This document shows, one piece after another, positions 4,377-9,747 of a DNA stretch of 10,636 nucleotides (position 1 is the stretch's first letter; each line of letters opens with the position of its first letter). Made by a program: the position numbers and the translations under genes. This stretch comes from Planctomycetota bacterium (lineage in GTDB: Bacteria; Planctomycetota; UBA1135; GCA-002686595), in assembly GCA_027623615.1 (NCBI GenBank), contig JAQBVH010000048.1, positions 1 through 10,636 of the forward strand, in the 5' to 3' direction. The notes under the pieces are model-generated. The model had not been told where the DNA came from and searched no databases. It saw only the letters and a list, made by a program, of their open reading frames with translations.

Positions 4377-5088
4377 CGCCGCCCTCCCGCATCCGGCCCG
4401 CGAGCTCCGGGGGCTGCCAGTCGCTCTCGGTCACGGGCGGGATCGCGTCCCAGTGCTTCCACTCCCCTACCCGCTCGTCGTCCAGGAAGTGGCCGCGGGA
4501 GCGCAGGGCCCCGCCCTCGTGGCGGAGGGTCCAGACGCCCTCGCGCTTGCCTTCGACGTAGGCCCCCTGCTGCCGCAGCGCACCATCGGGGAACCAGAAG
4601 GTCCAAGGCCCCTGGCGCACCCCGTTTCGGGCCATCCCCAGGGCACTCAGGCGACCCGAGGGGTGGAAGAACTTCATCGCGCTGGGCGTCCCCGTGAAGG
4701 TGTACTCCGAGCGCAGGGCGCCGTCGGGGTACCAGGTGGTCCATTCGCCCTCCGGTTCGCCCAGGCGGAAGTCGCGCCGGGAACGCGGCGCACCGTCGGG
4801 ATAGAAGCGGCGTTCCTGACCGTCCTTGATCACGCGTCCGTCCGGGTAGCGGAGCACGGCCCACGTGGCGACGACCTCACCGGTCTGCGGGTCGGTCGAA
4901 CGACGCAGGGCATGCACGGGATCCTCCTCGGGGTCGATGTCGGGCGTCGGGAGGTAGAAGTCGTCGGAGTCGAGGTGCCCTGCGCAGCCGACCAGCCCCA
5001 GCAGCGCCGTCGCCATGACGGGAATCCACGCCACGCACGGAGCCCGGTCGTGGGACCGGGAGGGTGCGCTCGCTAGCTTCGGGGTCAT
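4369..5088 (-). CDS. MORN-repeat (YwqK-like) lipoprotein
   Basis: An exported lipoprotein of up to 239 residues. A basic N-terminus and hydrophobic stretch run into the lipobox LVGC (Cys35 counted from the ATG at 5088), so the mature protein should be lipid-anchored. From about residue 81 onward, six units of roughly 15-24 residues start with an aromatic/His-P-D-G type motif: YPDG (81, 96, 120), HPSG (142), FPDG (166) and HEGG (190). Each later unit ends in G-x-W-x-x-W-like sequence (GEWTTW, GPWTFW, GEWKHW). This is the MORN_2 repeat pattern of YwqK-family proteins. Role unknown; surface or envelope interaction is inferred. The start is uncertain: GTG at 5034 or ATG at 5016 would leave room for a divergent promoter but give a signal peptide without positive charges. 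The upstream extension of this frame beyond 5088 has no coding character. It overlaps the methyltransferase gene by 8 bases. Confidence 0.8.
   Translation of the reverse strand: MTPKLASAPSRSHDRAPCVAWIPVMATALLGLVGCAGHLDSDDFYLPTPDIDPEEDPVHALRRSTDPQTGEVVATWAVLRYPDGRVIKDGQERRFYPDGAPRSRRDFRLGEPEGEWTTWYPDGALRSEYTFTGTPSAMKFFHPSGRLSALGMARNGVRQGPWTFWFPDGALRQQGAYVEGKREGVWTLRHEGGALRSRGHFLDDERVGEWKHWDAIPPVTESDWQPPELAGRMREGGDG
5043..5060. promoter_or_regulatory. Perfect inverted repeat near the divergent starts
   Basis: CCCGGTC (5043-5049), a GTGG spacer and GACCGGG (5054-5060) form a perfect 7-bp inverted repeat. It sits 26-43 bases upstream of the DUF218 gene start. If the lipoprotein starts at 5034 or 5016, it also lies just upstream of that gene, making it a candidate operator or leader hairpin. 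If the lipoprotein starts at 5088, it is coding. Confidence 0.4.
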
Positions 5089-6085
5089 GGGACGCTTCGC
5101 TTGGGTTCTCGACACGGTCGCGCGGGTCGCTGCAGGTTGCCTCGGACTGTTCACCGCTCTCAACATCCTCGGCGCGATTCGGTTCGGGGTCGACGCGAAT
5201 CTTTGGTGGGTCGACCTGCGCTGGCTTCCGAGCAGGTTGCGCTTGGCCCTGTTCGCGGGGCTGGCCTTGGCGCTGGTGCAGCTTGCCCTCAGACCACCGA
5301 GCGCTGGGCTACGACGACGCGCGACGGGCCTGCTCGTCGCCGGGTTCGGGGCCGCCTGCCTCCTGGACGCCGCCACCCTGCTCCTGCTGCGCGCGCAGGG
5401 ACGCGTCGCCGGGCCATGGTTTCCGCTCTCCTTCGCGACCGCGGCGATCCTCGCCCTGATCCTGGCTGGACTCCTTCGTTCCAAGACGCCCGTCCGGGCT
5501 CCACGCTGGGGTCGACCCCTCGCCGCGGGAGCAACCCTCGCCCTGCTGACCGTGGCGTTCCCACTCGGACAGATGACCCTCTTTGGCCGCTCGGACTACC
5601 GCCGGCCGGCCGATGCCGTCGTCGTCTTCGGTTCGAGGGTCTACTCCGACGGCCGCCCCTCCGATGCCCTGGCGGACCGCATGCGCACCGCGGTCGAGCT
5701 GGTCCAGGGGGGCTGGGCCCCGATCCTGATCGTCTCGGGCGGCCCCGGGGACGGCCCGTTCCACGAGACCGAGGCCATGCGTGCCTTCGCCGAGGCCTCC
5801 GGCGTCCCCCCCGGGGCGATTCGCGAGGATCGCAGTGGCTGGAGCACCCAGGACGCGGTAGAGGCCACGGTGGCCCTGATGCGGGAGGAGGGCCTGGAGC
5901 GCCTCCTGGCGGTCAGCCACGCCTACCACCTGCCCCGAGTCGAGCTCTGCTACCACTGGGCTGGGGTGGACGCGGCCACGGTCCCAGCCCGGGAGTCCTA
6001 CAGGCTGACGGCGATGCCCAGGTACATGGCCCGGGAGGTGGCCGCGTTCTGGGTCTACTGGGGCAGGGGGGTCCTTGGCGTTTGA
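5087..6085 (+). CDS. Membrane-anchored DUF218 (SanA/YdcF-like) protein
   Basis: A 332-residue integral membrane protein. Five hydrophobic segments are visible at about 10-30, 52-69, 80-101, 114-130 and 145-163. The DUF218 domain (about 175-305) follows: ADAVVVFGSRVYSDGRPS (175-192), ALADRMRTAVEL (194-205), ILIVSGGPGDG (213-223), HETEAMRAFAEASGVPP (226-242), STQDAVEAT (253-261) and LLAVSHAYHLPRVELCY (273-289). These correspond to the conserved blocks of SanA, YdcF and ElyC proteins, which act on the cell envelope; ElyC and SanA affect peptidoglycan metabolism and vancomycin sensitivity. The exact reaction is not established. The start at 5087 was preferred over ATG 5015 because it begins just before the first membrane helix and reduces overlap with the divergent gene. 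Its ATG shares CATG with a possible lipoprotein ATG on the other strand. Domain call is firm. Confidence 0.87.
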   Translation: MGRFAWVLDTVARVAAGCLGLFTALNILGAIRFGVDANLWWVDLRWLPSRLRLALFAGLALALVQLALRPPSAGLRRRATGLLVAGFGAACLLDAATLLLLRAQGRVAGPWFPLSFATAAILALILAGLLRSKTPVRAPRWGRPLAAGATLALLTVAFPLGQMTLFGRSDYRRPADAVVVFGSRVYSDGRPSDALADRMRTAVELVQGGWAPILIVSGGPGDGPFHETEAMRAFAEASGVPPGAIREDRSGWSTQDAVEATVALMREEGLERLLAVSHAYHLPRVELCYHWAGVDAATVPARESYRLTAMPRYMAREVAAFWVYWGRGVLGV

Positions 6086-6114: not shown

Positions 6115-6161
6115 CCTTGCAAGGCAAGCAGCCGAAGATGACGTCAGACTAGGTCGGCTGC
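6115..6161. promoter_or_regulatory. Nested palindromes upstream of the selenoprotein candidate
   Basis: Three symmetric elements lie in the 115-base gap before 6201. CCTTGCAAGG (6115-6124) is a perfect 10-bp palindrome. GCAGCCGA (6128-6135) and TCGGCTGC (6154-6161) are perfect 8-bp inverted arms. Between them lies TGACGTCA (6139-6146), a perfect 8-bp palindrome. The outer arms could form an RNA hairpin terminating the DUF218 transcript (no T-run follows), or a leader structure or operator for the downstream gene, whose start is 40 bases after the last arm. Confidence 0.45.
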
Positions 6162-6200
6162 GCACTTCCCCGCGCGCCTCATCCTCATCCCGAATACGCC

Positions 6201-6818
6201 ATGAGCACAAAACTCCACCTCGCCCTCGGGGTCCTGGCCTTTGGCCTGGCCGCCCCGGCCGTGGGCTCCCAACTCGACGACGCGCCCGCGATCGTCGACG
6301 ACGTCCCCGTCAAGAAGGTCAAGAAGGAAACGGACAAGAAGCAGAGCACCGTGACCGTCTGGGTCATGGAAGCCAAGGCCGCAGGCTGAAGCTCGGGTCC
6401 CGCGGCCCGTGCGGCCATGGATACGATCGAGAACGTCGACAAGCTGTTCCAGAGCGGCACCCGCTTCACGTTCACCATGTTGGACGACGAGAAGCCGGAC
6501 GAGGATGACATCAAGGCGGCGCTGAAGAGCAAGAAGGTGGCGTTCGTCTCCCTCACCAAGGAGACCCGCACCCGCGCGACCGTGGCGTACTCGATCGAGT
6601 GCCCCGGCTTCACATGAGCCACCACGTGCAACAAGGCCCGTGAGGCCTTGATGGAACTCGACGGCGTGGCTGACGCGTTCCCCGGCACGAGGACCATCGT
6701 GCACATGAAAGCCGACGCCGAGCTCGACGAGGAGGCCTTCCTGGCCGCTCTCAGGAAAGCCGGCGGCAAGAAGCTGAAGCTCAAGGGCAAGGTCGCCAAG
6801 AGCGACGCGCTGCTCTAG
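6201..6818 (+). CDS. Candidate exported selenoprotein: two HMA-like domains, two in-frame TGA (Sec63, Sec139)
   Basis: One frame from ATG 6201 to TAG 6818 gives 205 residues if TGA at 6387-6389 and 6615-6617 are read as selenocysteine. Residues 1-23 form a signal peptide (hydrophobic 5-21), followed by a Lys/Asp-rich linker and two similar modules of about 75 residues. Module 1 runs from VTVWVMEAKAAG through Sec63 to ALKSKKVAFVSL. Module 2 runs from ATVAYSIECPGFT through Sec139 to ALRKAGGKKLKL. Module 2 follows the HMA pattern: a beta strand, a metal-site loop, then AREALMELDGV and a late LxxALxxAG helix. Counting back from LDGV puts Sec139 exactly at the first Cys of the usual CxxC; Cys143 lies one position past the second. 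SECIS-like hairpins follow both TGAs. HMA domains bind soft metals (copper, mercury), so a periplasmic metal or redox role is inferred. The alternative is a decayed gene, but both stops are TGA at Cys-equivalent sites. No clear Shine-Dalgarno site. Confidence 0.75.
6396..6416 (+). promoter_or_regulatory. SECIS-like hairpin after the first in-frame TGA
   Basis: The stem pairs 6400-6403 (CCGC) with 6411-6414 (GCGG). It is extended across a two-base TC bulge by 6396-6397 (GG) with 6415-6416 (CC). The apical loop is GGCCCGT (6404-6410), whose first G is the 15th base after the TGA. A bulge containing U a few pairs below a G-starting loop, about 15-20 bases after UGA, is the layout of the E. coli fdhF SECIS. 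Other GC pairings are possible here, so the fold is a prediction. Confidence 0.55.
6632..6650 (+). promoter_or_regulatory. SECIS-like hairpin after the second in-frame TGA
   Basis: CAAGGCC (6632-6638) pairs perfectly with GGCCTTG (6644-6650) around a five-base loop CGTGA (6639-6643) with G in second position. The loop begins at the 22nd base after the TGA, within the window used by bacterial selenocysteine insertion. This is the cleanest hairpin inside the reading frame and differs in sequence from the first, as bacterial SECIS elements usually do. Confidence 0.65.
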
Positions 6819-6836
6819 CGGTCTGACGGCTCGCTT

Positions 6837-6876
6837 CGAGGAGCCTCCTCTGCATTCGTGCTGAGGAGGCTCCTCG
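6837..6876. terminator. Very stable hairpin after the selenoprotein candidate
   Basis: CGAGGAGCCTCCTC (6837-6850) and GAGGAGGCTCCTCG (6863-6876) form a perfect 14-bp stem. Past a T-T mismatch, GCA/TGC extend it to a TTCG tetraloop (6855-6858). It begins 19 bases after the TAG at 6818 and 84 bases before the sigma factor start. No T-run follows, so it may act as a terminator with weak tract, a 3' RNA stabiliser, or both. Its presence right after TAG 6818 supports that stop as the true gene end. Confidence 0.7.
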
Positions 6877-6959
6877 CGTTCCAACGATCCTCTCTCGGAT
6901 TCGTAGACGATTCCATGCAAGGCCGACCCGAGCCGGGGACATCGGAGGGGCACGCCCCC

Positions 6960-7475
6960 GTGACCGCACCCCACGCGAGCCCACGACTCACTCACGACGC
7001 TTTCGCGGAACGCTTCGAAGGCGCCGCGCGCGTGCTGTGGACTATCGCTGCCGCAGTTCTCGGTCATCGGGCCCAGGTGGAGGACGTGATCCAAGAAGCG
7101 GCCATCGTCGGCCTCGAGAAGCTCGACCAGTTCGACCCCAACACGCACTTCGAGGCATGGATGGGGCGCATCGTGCGCTTCGTCGCCCTGAACCACCTGC
7201 GGCGCGAAGCGCGGCGCAGGACGAGCCAGCCCGAGCTGCTCGAGAGCGTGCCCGCGGTCGAGCCCCTCGACCATGACCTCGACGACACCCTGCAGGCCGC
7301 CCTCCCCGGGCTACGTCCGGTCGTCCGCGCGTGCCTCCTGCTCAAGGTCGTCGAGGAGCTCGAGTACCGGGAGATCGCGCAGGTGCTCGAGATCCCCGAG
7401 GGCACCGCGATGAGCCATGTGCACCGCGCCCGCCACGCCCTGCAGAGTCAACTGTCCCAGGAGGTGATGGGATGA
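6960..7475 (+). CDS. ECF-type RNA polymerase sigma factor
   Basis: A 171-residue sigma-70 family factor of extracytoplasmic-function size, with regions 2 and 4 only. Region 2 spans about residues 16-86, with the core-binding segment EDVIQEAAIVGLEKLDQFDP (41-60) and WMGRIVRFVALNHLRREARR (67-86). Region 4 spans about 112-165, with the helix-turn-helix EYREIAQVLEIPEGTAMSHV (135-154) followed by HRARHAL. GTG 6960 was chosen because GGAGGGG (6944-6950) lies nine bases upstream. An in-frame ATG at 6915 lacks a ribosome-binding site, and the GTG at 6858 lies inside the terminator hairpin. The stop overlaps the next gene's ATG as ATGA, the usual arrangement for a sigma factor and its anti-sigma factor. 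Family assignment is firm; the signal and regulon are unknown. Confidence 0.9.
   Translation: MTAPHASPRLTHDAFAERFEGAARVLWTIAAAVLGHRAQVEDVIQEAAIVGLEKLDQFDPNTHFEAWMGRIVRFVALNHLRREARRRTSQPELLESVPAVEPLDHDLDDTLQAALPGLRPVVRACLLLKVVEELEYREIAQVLEIPEGTAMSHVHRARHALQSQLSQEVMG
7459..7468 (+). promoter_or_regulatory. Consensus ribosome-binding site for the anti-sigma candidate
   Basis: AGGAGGTGAT at 7459-7468, within the last codons of the sigma gene, is a near-perfect anti-Shine-Dalgarno complement spaced correctly for ATG 7472. It fixes that start and shows that this organism uses strong Shine-Dalgarno sites. Confidence 0.8.
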
Positions 7476-8247: not shown

Positions 8248-9747
8248 ATGGAAGCCCCGGAACGAGACGACGCGCCGCCCCGGCCCCCTCCCCAGAAGGC
8301 CGGCATCCCGGATGCCCCCGAGGGTTCGCCGCCCATGCGCGACGAGGCCGAGGATGCCGGCGTCCCGCCCCTCGGCGCGGCGCTGCCGGAAGCGGACTTC
8401 TGGTCGGCCCTCTACACGCGCCGCTCGATCCGCAAGTTCAAGCCCGACCCGGTCCCGCGCGAGCTGATCGACCAGGTCATGCACGCGGGCATCTGGGCCC
8501 CTAGCTCCTGCAACTACCAGATGTGGGACCTGGTCGCGGTCGACGACCCCGAGCTCAACGCGCAGCTCGCGCAGCTGTCGCTGCAGATGGCCAACGCGCC
8601 GGTGAACCTGATCGTCAGCTACGGCCGCGACTTCAGCGAGGAGAACTACGCCAACATCCAGTCCGCCAGCGCGCTGATCCAGAACATGAGCCTCGCCGCG
8701 CAGGTGCTCGGCCTCGGCACGTTCTGGATCACCCAGACCGGAGACTCCGAGAAGGTGCGCGAGCTGGTCGGCCTGCCCCGCGACCGGATGGTGATCGCCG
8801 TGCTCGCCCTCGGCTGGCCGAAGGTCATGCCCAAGCAGGGGCCCAAGCGCCGACCCCTGTCCCAGGTCACCCACTACAACTACTACGCGGGCAAGCCGAT
8901 CCCCTCCTCGGTCGACCCCGAGGACTGGGACCCGGAGCTGCTCGCGACCTACCAGCGCGCGCGCGTGCTCAACGGGCTGCGCCACAACAAGCCGCGCGCC
9001 TGGGAGGTGCGTGCCCTGGTGACGGCCCTCGATGCCCTCGTGCCGGACGGCAAGCAGAGGCCCGAGGACCCGGCCAGCGCACCGCGCTGGCTCGACGTCT
9101 TGCCGTGCACGGGGATCGTCACCGACAAGCTCTCGATCGAGCGCCGCGGCTTCGCCTTCGACGTCGTCGAGCGCAGCTCGGAGGTCGCCCAGTGGGTGTC
9201 CACGCGTACACGCCCGAAGGCGGGAGTGCGGGGCTGGCCCACGAGCAGCGGACTGCCGGCGCCGGACGAGGGCGTCTATGACGTGGTCTCGTGCATCTTC
9301 CGGCTCGAAGACCTGCGCGCCGCCGAGCGCGTCGAGTTGATGGCCGCCATGACCCGCTGGGTGAAGCCGGGCGGCCGGGTCCTGATCGGCTTCGTCAGTG
9401 CCAGCTCGTTCCACGACCGGACCGAGAAGCTGCGCGCGCGTCGGGGCGGACCGAAGGGTGTGGAGTACGTGCTCTCGCCCGACCCGAACATCGGTCCGTT
9501 CCAGGCGCTCCGCTCCGCCGAGGTCGTGGGCCTCGCGCAGGCCGCCGGGCTCACCCTCGAGAACGGTCTGGGTCTCCAGGCCGCGCCGCAGCCCGAGGAG
9601 ATCGACTTCCGCACGCGCAACTTCTCCGCGCGCACGAAGAAGATCGTGAATGGCGTCAGCAAGCTCCTCGGAGCGATTGAGCGCTTGCCGGGCGCGCAGA
9701 ATCGCCGCGGGCGGTTCCAGTTCCGCGTGTTCCGACGCCCGGGCTGA
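8248..9747 (+). CDS. Nitroreductase fused to a degenerate methyltransferase-like domain
   Basis: A 499-residue two-domain protein. Residues 1-47 are Pro/Asp-rich and probably disordered; an ATG at residue 30 is an alternative start. Residues about 50-215 are a nitroreductase-family flavoprotein: YTRRSIRKFKPDPVP (56-70) and WAPSSCNYQMWDLVAVDD (83-100) are the FMN-contacting blocks, and LGLGTFWITQTGD (154-166) and ALGWPK (187-192) are the later ones. Such enzymes use FMN and NAD(P)H for two-electron reductions. Residues about 235-499 resemble a class I SAM methyltransferase: WLDVLPCTGIVT (281-292) matches motif I but lacks the usual glycine between Cys and Thr. FDVVERS (304-310) follows, then YDVVSCIFRLED (344-355) and WVKPGGRVLIGF (371-382). 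The fusion may channel a substrate or use the second domain as a binding module. Its end faces the TPMT gene with three bases between the stops. Substrates unknown. Confidence 0.82.
   Translation: MEAPERDDAPPRPPPQKAGIPDAPEGSPPMRDEAEDAGVPPLGAALPEADFWSALYTRRSIRKFKPDPVPRELIDQVMHAGIWAPSSCNYQMWDLVAVDDPELNAQLAQLSLQMANAPVNLIVSYGRDFSEENYANIQSASALIQNMSLAAQVLGLGTFWITQTGDSEKVRELVGLPRDRMVIAVLALGWPKVMPKQGPKRRPLSQVTHYNYYAGKPIPSSVDPEDWDPELLATYQRARVLNGLRHNKPRAWEVRALVTALDALVPDGKQRPEDPASAPRWLDVLPCTGIVTDKLSIERRGFAFDVVERSSEVAQWVSTRTRPKAGVRGWPTSSGLPAPDEGVYDVVSCIFRLEDLRAAERVELMAAMTRWVKPGGRVLIGFVSASSFHDRTEKLRARRGGPKGVEYVLSPDPNIGPFQALRSAEVVGLAQAAGLTLENGLGLQAAPQPEEIDFRTRNFSARTKKIVNGVSKLLGAIERLPGAQNRRGRFQFRVFRRPG

Follow-up and report, generated by a model that had tools for sequence, protein, structure and literature searches.

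A probable exported selenoprotein with two HMA-like modules and two selenocysteine codons in Planctomycetota

A gene in a planctomycete genome encodes, with a probability of about 0.93, an exported selenoprotein built from two HMA-like modules, in which selenocysteine (Sec) is inserted at both in-frame UGA codons through a separate SECIS hairpin for each. The window, which is the whole stretch of DNA analysed (10,636 nucleotides, contig JAQBVH010000048.1 of assembly GCA_027623615.1), derives from a metagenome-assembled genome (MAG) of 4.45 Mb in 847 contigs that is 72% complete. Two selenocysteines at homologous positions in a tandem HMA-like exported protein had been proposed in a first-pass annotation made from the sequence alone. 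The proposal is now supported by TGA pairs conserved across genomes, covarying hairpins, the presence of selA, selB and selD with a SelD of the Sec type, and an HMA-like fold. These features were established computationally; export, the actual incorporation of Sec and the role of the protein are what we infer.

In the proposed mechanism, each in-frame UGA would be decoded as selenocysteine by the SelB/tRNA-Sec pathway, served by its own SECIS hairpin immediately downstream. The CGU of the usual CGUG apical loop would double as the codon of a conserved arginine, and each Sec would lie in the metal-binding beta1-alpha1 loop, where it would replace the leading Cys of CxxC.

Translation bears out the single frame proposed earlier, with the two TGAs as its sole interruptions (Table 1), and the split ORFs at 6201–6389 and 6417–6617 are present as first described. 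The gene lies between a DUF218-domain gene (5015–6085) and an inverted repeat, after which a sigma-70-type gene follows. The inverted repeat is a possible transcription end, although it carries no clear U-tract and was not called as a terminator by the terminator scan. A sigma-70 promoter scan found no promoter. Two antisense GC-rich frames on the minus strand (6185–6799 and 6144–7274) are also open; the synonymous pattern described below favours the plus frame. Export of the two-Sec protein is suggested by signal-like N-termini: relatives start with similar signal or lipoprotein sequences, and a lipobox-like motif occurs in 26 of the 68 U-carrying members. Elsewhere in the window, 123–914 and 911–1795 form an adjacent Band_7/SPFH gene pair, and 8248–9747 joins a nitroreductase domain and a methyltransferase-like domain in a single frame.

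Table 1. Features of the gene and its immediate surroundings (positions in the window)
Feature	Position	Strand	Remarks
Whole gene	6201..6818	+	205 codons; ATG 6201, TAG 6816-6818; two in-frame TGA
Signal-peptide-like N-terminus	6201..6266	+	By-eye call: hydrophobic core, AVGS-type end
Module 1, HMA-like, beta-alpha-beta-beta-alpha-beta	6348..6572	+	Residues 50-124
TGA codon 63, Sec reading; beta1-alpha1 (metal) loop of module 1	6387..6389	+	From alignment and predicted structure
SECIS-type hairpin 1, GGCC-CGUGC-GGCC	6404..6416	+	Loop start 21 nt past T of TGA
Module 2, HMA-like	6579..6803	+	Residues 127-201
TGA codon 139, Sec reading; UATTC context (Cys143)	6615..6617	+	Aligned with first Cys of HMA CxxC
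SECIS-type hairpin 2, CAAGGCC-CGUGA-GGCCUUG	6632..6650	+	Loop start 24 nt past T of TGA
Inverted repeat, 18 nt, 94% complementary, 4-nt spacer	6837..6876	+	Directly 3' of stop

Two word-seeded searches of predicted proteins yielded no full-length relative among the candidates scored. Phmmer with the read-through protein (2303 candidates) gave no full-length relative, and hmmsearch with alignment A1 gave none among the best 8000 candidates scored. This is probably because the gene calls are truncated, as was seen in one related clade. A1 comprises 17 of the 21 family rows, the near-duplicate L004 being excluded together with L011, L013 and L014. A related-locus search with the window protein as query found no locus; with a six-row alignment of a related clade as query it found 12, some of which are apparently the same contigs as sampled genomes and hence not independent. 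A query taken from a relative in another clade, namely its sequence beyond the second TGA, recovered 221 predicted proteins. The 120 of these C-terminal pieces that were listed are 59–66 aa long and hypothetical where named.

Six-frame searches did reveal relatives with two TGAs. The single protein as query gave matches in 26 of the 392 phylum genomes (E <= 0.01), though a number of these were ordinary or spurious. A1 matched 59 of the 154 class genomes (E <= 1e-3), and 49 of the 154 carried two TGAs spanning both modules; at E <= 1e-6, 38 of the 392 phylum genomes matched, 24 of them with two TGAs. The class and phylum samples overlap, and TGA-free matches in large open frames were assumed in both searches to be ordinary HMA ATPases. 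In one of the 24 phylum genomes, G020, the two TGAs are adjacent and both lie in module 1, leaving module 2 without any. The locus concerned (L014, 1435–2238, minus strand) reads GRUUGKNP and may represent a double Sec or decay. G428, a genome of the same genus that is 86% complete, gave no match in the six-frame search of the class. Loci L022–L028 were removed as non-family before sites were counted, as were same-place loci.

Codons 63 and 139 had been singled out as the positions to check in homologues, and in other genomes a TGA indeed occupies each of these two alignment columns. Since homologous frames share both columns, the pair is, on comparative grounds, more than chance. The rows of A1 are 22–41% identical to the window protein, and their only invariant columns are U63, U139 and R147. 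Codon differences 3′ of the first TGA are mostly synonymous (L003 against L004, 5 synonymous and no non-synonymous; L003 against L005, 18 and 2), so that the frame is under protein-level selection after both TGAs. For the L003–L004 pair, the signal and linker region ahead of the first TGA has 1 synonymous change and 5 non-synonymous ones.

Departures from the two-TGA arrangement are few. Sec has been lost at one or both places in L014, L088, L089 and L192: in L088, module 1 lacks Sec and module 2 carries Cys, and L089 and L192 have three modules with Sec in the first alone. Single-module forms with one TGA occur at L013, L091, L092 and L193. A Cys homologue at a Sec position was found in one genome (L088) and in none of the best 8000 predicted-protein candidates scored. 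With so few Cys homologues, the classical Sec/Cys test has almost no content for this family.

Standard gene calling splits the frame, and the predicted-protein sets of a related clade contain the C-terminal pieces described above. Both observations are what would be expected if the two TGAs were true stops that delimit three short genes or a decaying pseudogene. This reading is considered highly improbable. The TGA pair recurs at matching positions across dozens of genomes, even though the A1 rows share only 22–41% identity with the window protein, there is purifying selection 3′ of both TGAs, and the hairpins that follow them covary. Moreover, according to the predicted structure, a halt at codon 63 would cut module 1 after its first strand. 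Reassignment of TGA, to Trp for instance, or its readthrough as some other amino acid would also leave the frame open across both TGAs. However, TGA serves as an ordinary stop codon elsewhere in the window, as had been stated of the neighbouring genes and as is confirmed by the DUF218 gene, which terminates with it. Homologous genes, L003 among them, also appear to terminate at a TGA. The genome holds Sec machinery and a Sec-type SelD, and the position in question is that of a metal-ligand Cys, with Cys itself there in L088. Reassignment thus carries an equally slight probability, and decoding of both codons as Sec is the preferred reading.

Each TGA has a hairpin at a fixed distance on its 3′ side, with a loop of 5 nt that in most cases reads CGUG followed by A or C. 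The loop starts 24 nt past the T of the TGA in module 2 and 21 or 30 nt past it in module 1. A CGTG loop with at least 3 pairs and a start at +21 to +30 follows the second TGA in 59 of 62 cases and the first in 57 of 68, totals that take in single-TGA and contig-edge members. For the covariation analysis, rows were placed at a fixed codon register, and pairing was not a criterion for their selection. The second-site set, D2, holds 60 of the 62 sites (L014 and L086 left out) in 49 distinct rows. The first-site set, D1, holds 61 of the 68, all distinct (L014, L086, L087, L013, L091, L092 and L090 left out), and its register of 21 or 30 was set per locus after viewing the hairpin loop-position scan.

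In D2, 96.8% of cells are paired, with 64 double-change cells against 17.8 in shuffles and a covariation score of 0.638 against at most 0.124 with slid partners. The corresponding values for D1 are 88.1% of cells paired, 72 double-change cells against 27.0, and a score of 0.497 against at most 0.156. Paired fraction, double-change cells and covariation score were reached by 0 of 500 shuffles in either set; 6 pairs show a double change in each set, a number that 66 and 62 of the 500 shuffles reached. The shuffle test can be inflated by relatedness, which the slid control preserves. The loop codon is CGT (Arg) at 58 of 60 module-2 sites and 53 of 61 module-1 sites, compared with 14 of 178 Arg codons in seven other frames of the window.

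Of the 198 TGA triplets in the window, 2 are followed at these distances by a CGTG hairpin with a stem of 4 bp or more, and they are exactly the two sites discussed here. A SECIS-like hairpin of some kind follows 45 of the 198, making a generic SECIS test weak. The bacterial SECIS model summarised in PMC13188914 requires a spacing of 16–37 nt, a G within the first two loop positions, a stem of 4–16 bp and a minimum free energy of at most −7.5 kcal/mol. Hairpin 2 agrees with this model throughout (−10.4, 7 bp, spacing 21). Hairpin 1 agrees in loop, spacing (18) and stem (4 bp), while its perfect stem alone misses −7.5 kcal/mol. Single-sequence folding energy is unremarkable for both (z 0.43 for hairpin 1 and −1.35 for hairpin 2) and lends no support. 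A covariance model of hairpin 2 (R1), run on the genome of origin, recovered the window site at 40.8 bits and 19 weaker rows. Among the first 10 of these (best 23.7 bits, E 0.002), 8 have no TGA in the range inspected and 2 have one. A further candidate in the same genome (contig C405, near 2789–2824; L128) is a CxxCH-containing frame that has a TGA within it and no Pfam match; its hairpin is weak, at 17.0 bits.

The machinery for Sec insertion is largely present in the genome of origin. An earlier suggestion that selA, selB, selC and selD be sought there is answered in part: three of the genes were found, while selC (tRNA-Sec) was not detected in this incomplete MAG. SelB scores 328.9 bits (cut-off 242.25) in an open frame of 664 aa. 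SelA scores 318.3 bits against a cut-off of 267.9 and is partial at a contig end, and the adjoining selD scores 322.8 bits against 125. The selD gene (contig C484, 990–1853; L183) has one in-frame TGA in the context ASCAGUAAK. Sec-type SelD is described by the motif UxxK in PMC13188914, and the sequence ASCAGUAAK fits it. The candidates for tRNA-Sec in the same genome were assigned to tRNA-Ser/Leu by ARAGORN.

Among relatives, 22 of 24 genomes have a tRNA-Sec above the cut-off, including G428, and ARAGORN called tRNA-SeC (tca) at 12 of 12 loci drawn from the best of the tRNA-Sec-positive relatives. Of 14 control genomes, 2 passed the cut-off for selB, 1 for selA, 2 for selD and 5 for tRNA-Sec; the last figure indicates that the tRNA-Sec cut-off alone is perhaps not fully specific. 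Two carriers lack a component above the cut-off, namely G154 (no selB) and G173 (neither selA nor tRNA-Sec), both being 76–77% complete. As selB passes in 43 of 46 genomes with or without the family, it does not discriminate carriers.

Sec insertion generally competes with termination. The product may therefore be conditional, with both Sec inserted when selenium is available and a stop at codon 63 when it is not, forming a selenium-controlled switch. Two serial UGAs would sharpen the competition between the two outcomes. Such a switch, in which the truncated peptides would have to be functional, is compatible with the main reading; it is regarded as improbable, although less so than true stops or reassignment.

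In the predicted structure (mean pLDDT 71, pTM 0.54), both modules adopt a beta-alpha-beta-beta-alpha-beta, ferredoxin-like fold that is HMA-like on structural alignment to the families compared. Both TGAs fall in the beta1-alpha1 loop, in keeping with the earlier placement of each in a metal-site loop. The family profile matches the tandem HMA of CopA at 1.9e-8, and the profile alignment to CopA HMA domains confirms the assignment of the second TGA to the first Cys of CxxC. Pfam HMA is matched at E <= 1 by 9 of 17 members (best 4.7e-7), and L020 scores 28.5 bits against PF00403, where the gathering score is 24.8. The Pfam scan of the window protein itself gave no HMA match; its sole match, OB_DEPS (E 0.084), was set aside as weak and irrelevant. 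The protein is probably HMA-like in its working and descended from an HMA protein.

The CxxC motif of PF00403 is absent, with Sec at the first Cys and Cys at U+3 in 0 of 122 sites (61 members). In most members U+3 is Thr, Ser, Gly or Ala, and module 2 reads U-x-x-T at 53 of 61 sites. Module 2 of the window protein has a Cys one residue beyond U+3 (Cys143, U+4), a position that is Cys at 6 of 61 module-2 sites. No Cys at all lies between 12 residues before U1 and the match end in 29 of 62 two-U members. Tandem HMA-like proteins at L184, L199, L200 and L086 have Sec and a nearby Cys in each module (UxxxC, and once UxxC, in one module of the distant relative L200); they are intermediate between ordinary HMA proteins and the window family. 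At L196 (652–1356, genome G104, family f27), a tandem HMA frame holds four in-frame TGAs in two UxxxU loops and matches Pfam HMA at 3.1e-22. Four TGAs occur in 1 of the 16 genomes of f27, and single-module relatives with two TGAs occur in others.

One metal-loop Sec per module, usually without a second thiol, suggests either a two-module metal site or selenol chemistry. The most likely role, at about even odds, is that the selenolates bind a soft metal ion in the cell envelope, with Hg(II), Cu(I) and Ag(I) as examples. Both Sec residues of one molecule might bind the metal jointly, as a two-coordinate selenolate site. The lack of Cys at U+3 counts against a metal role, as does the neighbourhood, in which no conserved metal-related gene was found and no gene at all is conserved across families. 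Shared synteny was seen within the f2 clade (L109, L112, L113, L115, L117, L118, L151, L154 and L156), with an ATP-type PEP carboxykinase nearby that was identified by Pfam in L113 only; L113 and L154 are apparently the same contig.

The less favoured, though still credible, alternative is an envelope redox selenoprotein that acts on peroxides, disulfides or selenium compounds, with the HMA-like fold serving as a scaffold and no metal bound. Neither module has the second metal Cys. The U-x-x-T of module 2 is a motif given in PMC13188914 for GPX-like, Grx-like and OsmC-like selenoproteins, and the same source considers most uncharacterised selenoproteins to be redox-active. In the window protein, Cys134 and Cys143 could allow an Se-S bond to form. 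Peroxide or disulfide reduction would then draw on an external reductant or, in window-type members, on a nearby thiol. Against this, nearly half of the two-U members have no Cys in the stretch examined, the HMA-like modules carry Sec at their metal-loop position, and the tandem relatives with UxxxC or UxxxU retain strong HMA scores. Soft-metal binding is preferred.

The catalogue of PMC13188914 (2026) lists 119 families or subfamilies, a small subset of families having 2–3 Sec. Its HMA- or mercury-type entries, in the portion of the paper covered, are NF041115 with UxxU, a cation ATPase with UxxC and a putative mercuric transport protein, and a two-module architecture with one Sec in each is absent from that portion. 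Nor was the family found described in the covered parts of PMC13188914, PMC12013277, PMC4807772, PMC2398784 and PMC9402790; the 2016 planctomycete paper (PMC4807772) discusses other selenoproteins. No NCBIfam model exceeded its own cut-off for the nine members scanned.

The nearest known system is NF041115 (UxxU_metal_bind), entered as a "putative mercuric reductase" with UxxU and 2 Sec in PMC13188914. Common to both is a metal-binding module of the HMA type whose metal loop contains Sec, but NF041115 consists of one module of 74 positions and has its two Sec in the same loop, whereas the window protein has one Sec in each of two modules. The window protein scores 16.9 bits against its cut-off of 95; the best of the nine members, L020, scores 39.7, and L199 reaches 70.3. 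HMA proteins of PF00403 (MerP, CopZ and the N-terminal tandem of CopA) share the fold, the CopA-like tandem and the first-Cys position now held by Sec. The window protein differs from them in having Sec for Cys and no second Cys, in being an exported stand-alone protein, and in falling below Pfam detection. MbdU (NF045648, metal-binding double selenoprotein) also has two Sec per protein, but its motif is listed as CU in PMC13188914, unlike the window family. NF045648 was not among the matches at E <= 1 for the nine members, nor among those of a second set of ten proteins. HMA- or mercury-type proteins with Sec also include the GOS "Mercuric transport protein MerP" (PMC2398784) and the putative mercuric transport protein and UxxC cation ATPase already mentioned, of which the latter two differ in having one Sec each according to the catalogue. 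Because two defining features of PF00403 are missing from the window protein, it is filed as a new selenoprotein family within the known HMA-like selenoproteins.

The finding adds a widespread two-Sec family to the bacterial selenoproteins, at a point where the literature found on those of Planctomycetota is sparse. Standard annotation loses the family: in one clade, protein sets retain stretches of about 64 residues that correspond to what follows the second UGA. The authors of deep-Sep state (PMC12013277) the requirement for Cys/TGA pairs as a limit of their method. As Cys homologues are nearly lacking here, methods of this type could miss the family, and similar families may be hidden elsewhere. 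More tentatively, and on balance doubtfully, Planctomycetota may harbour an unrecognised radiation of exported HMA-like selenoproteins with one to four Sec. The window branch would be the form with one selenolate per module, its two modules clamping one soft metal ion (or forming a diselenide), and Sec would be so favoured that Cys forms are almost absent, leaving the group invisible to gene callers and Sec/Cys-pair methods. An HMA-like pair with one selenolate per module offers a natural test of selenium versus sulfur in a metal-handling fold, and the conserved CGUG-loop hairpins provide a specific probe for SelB recognition in Planctomycetota.
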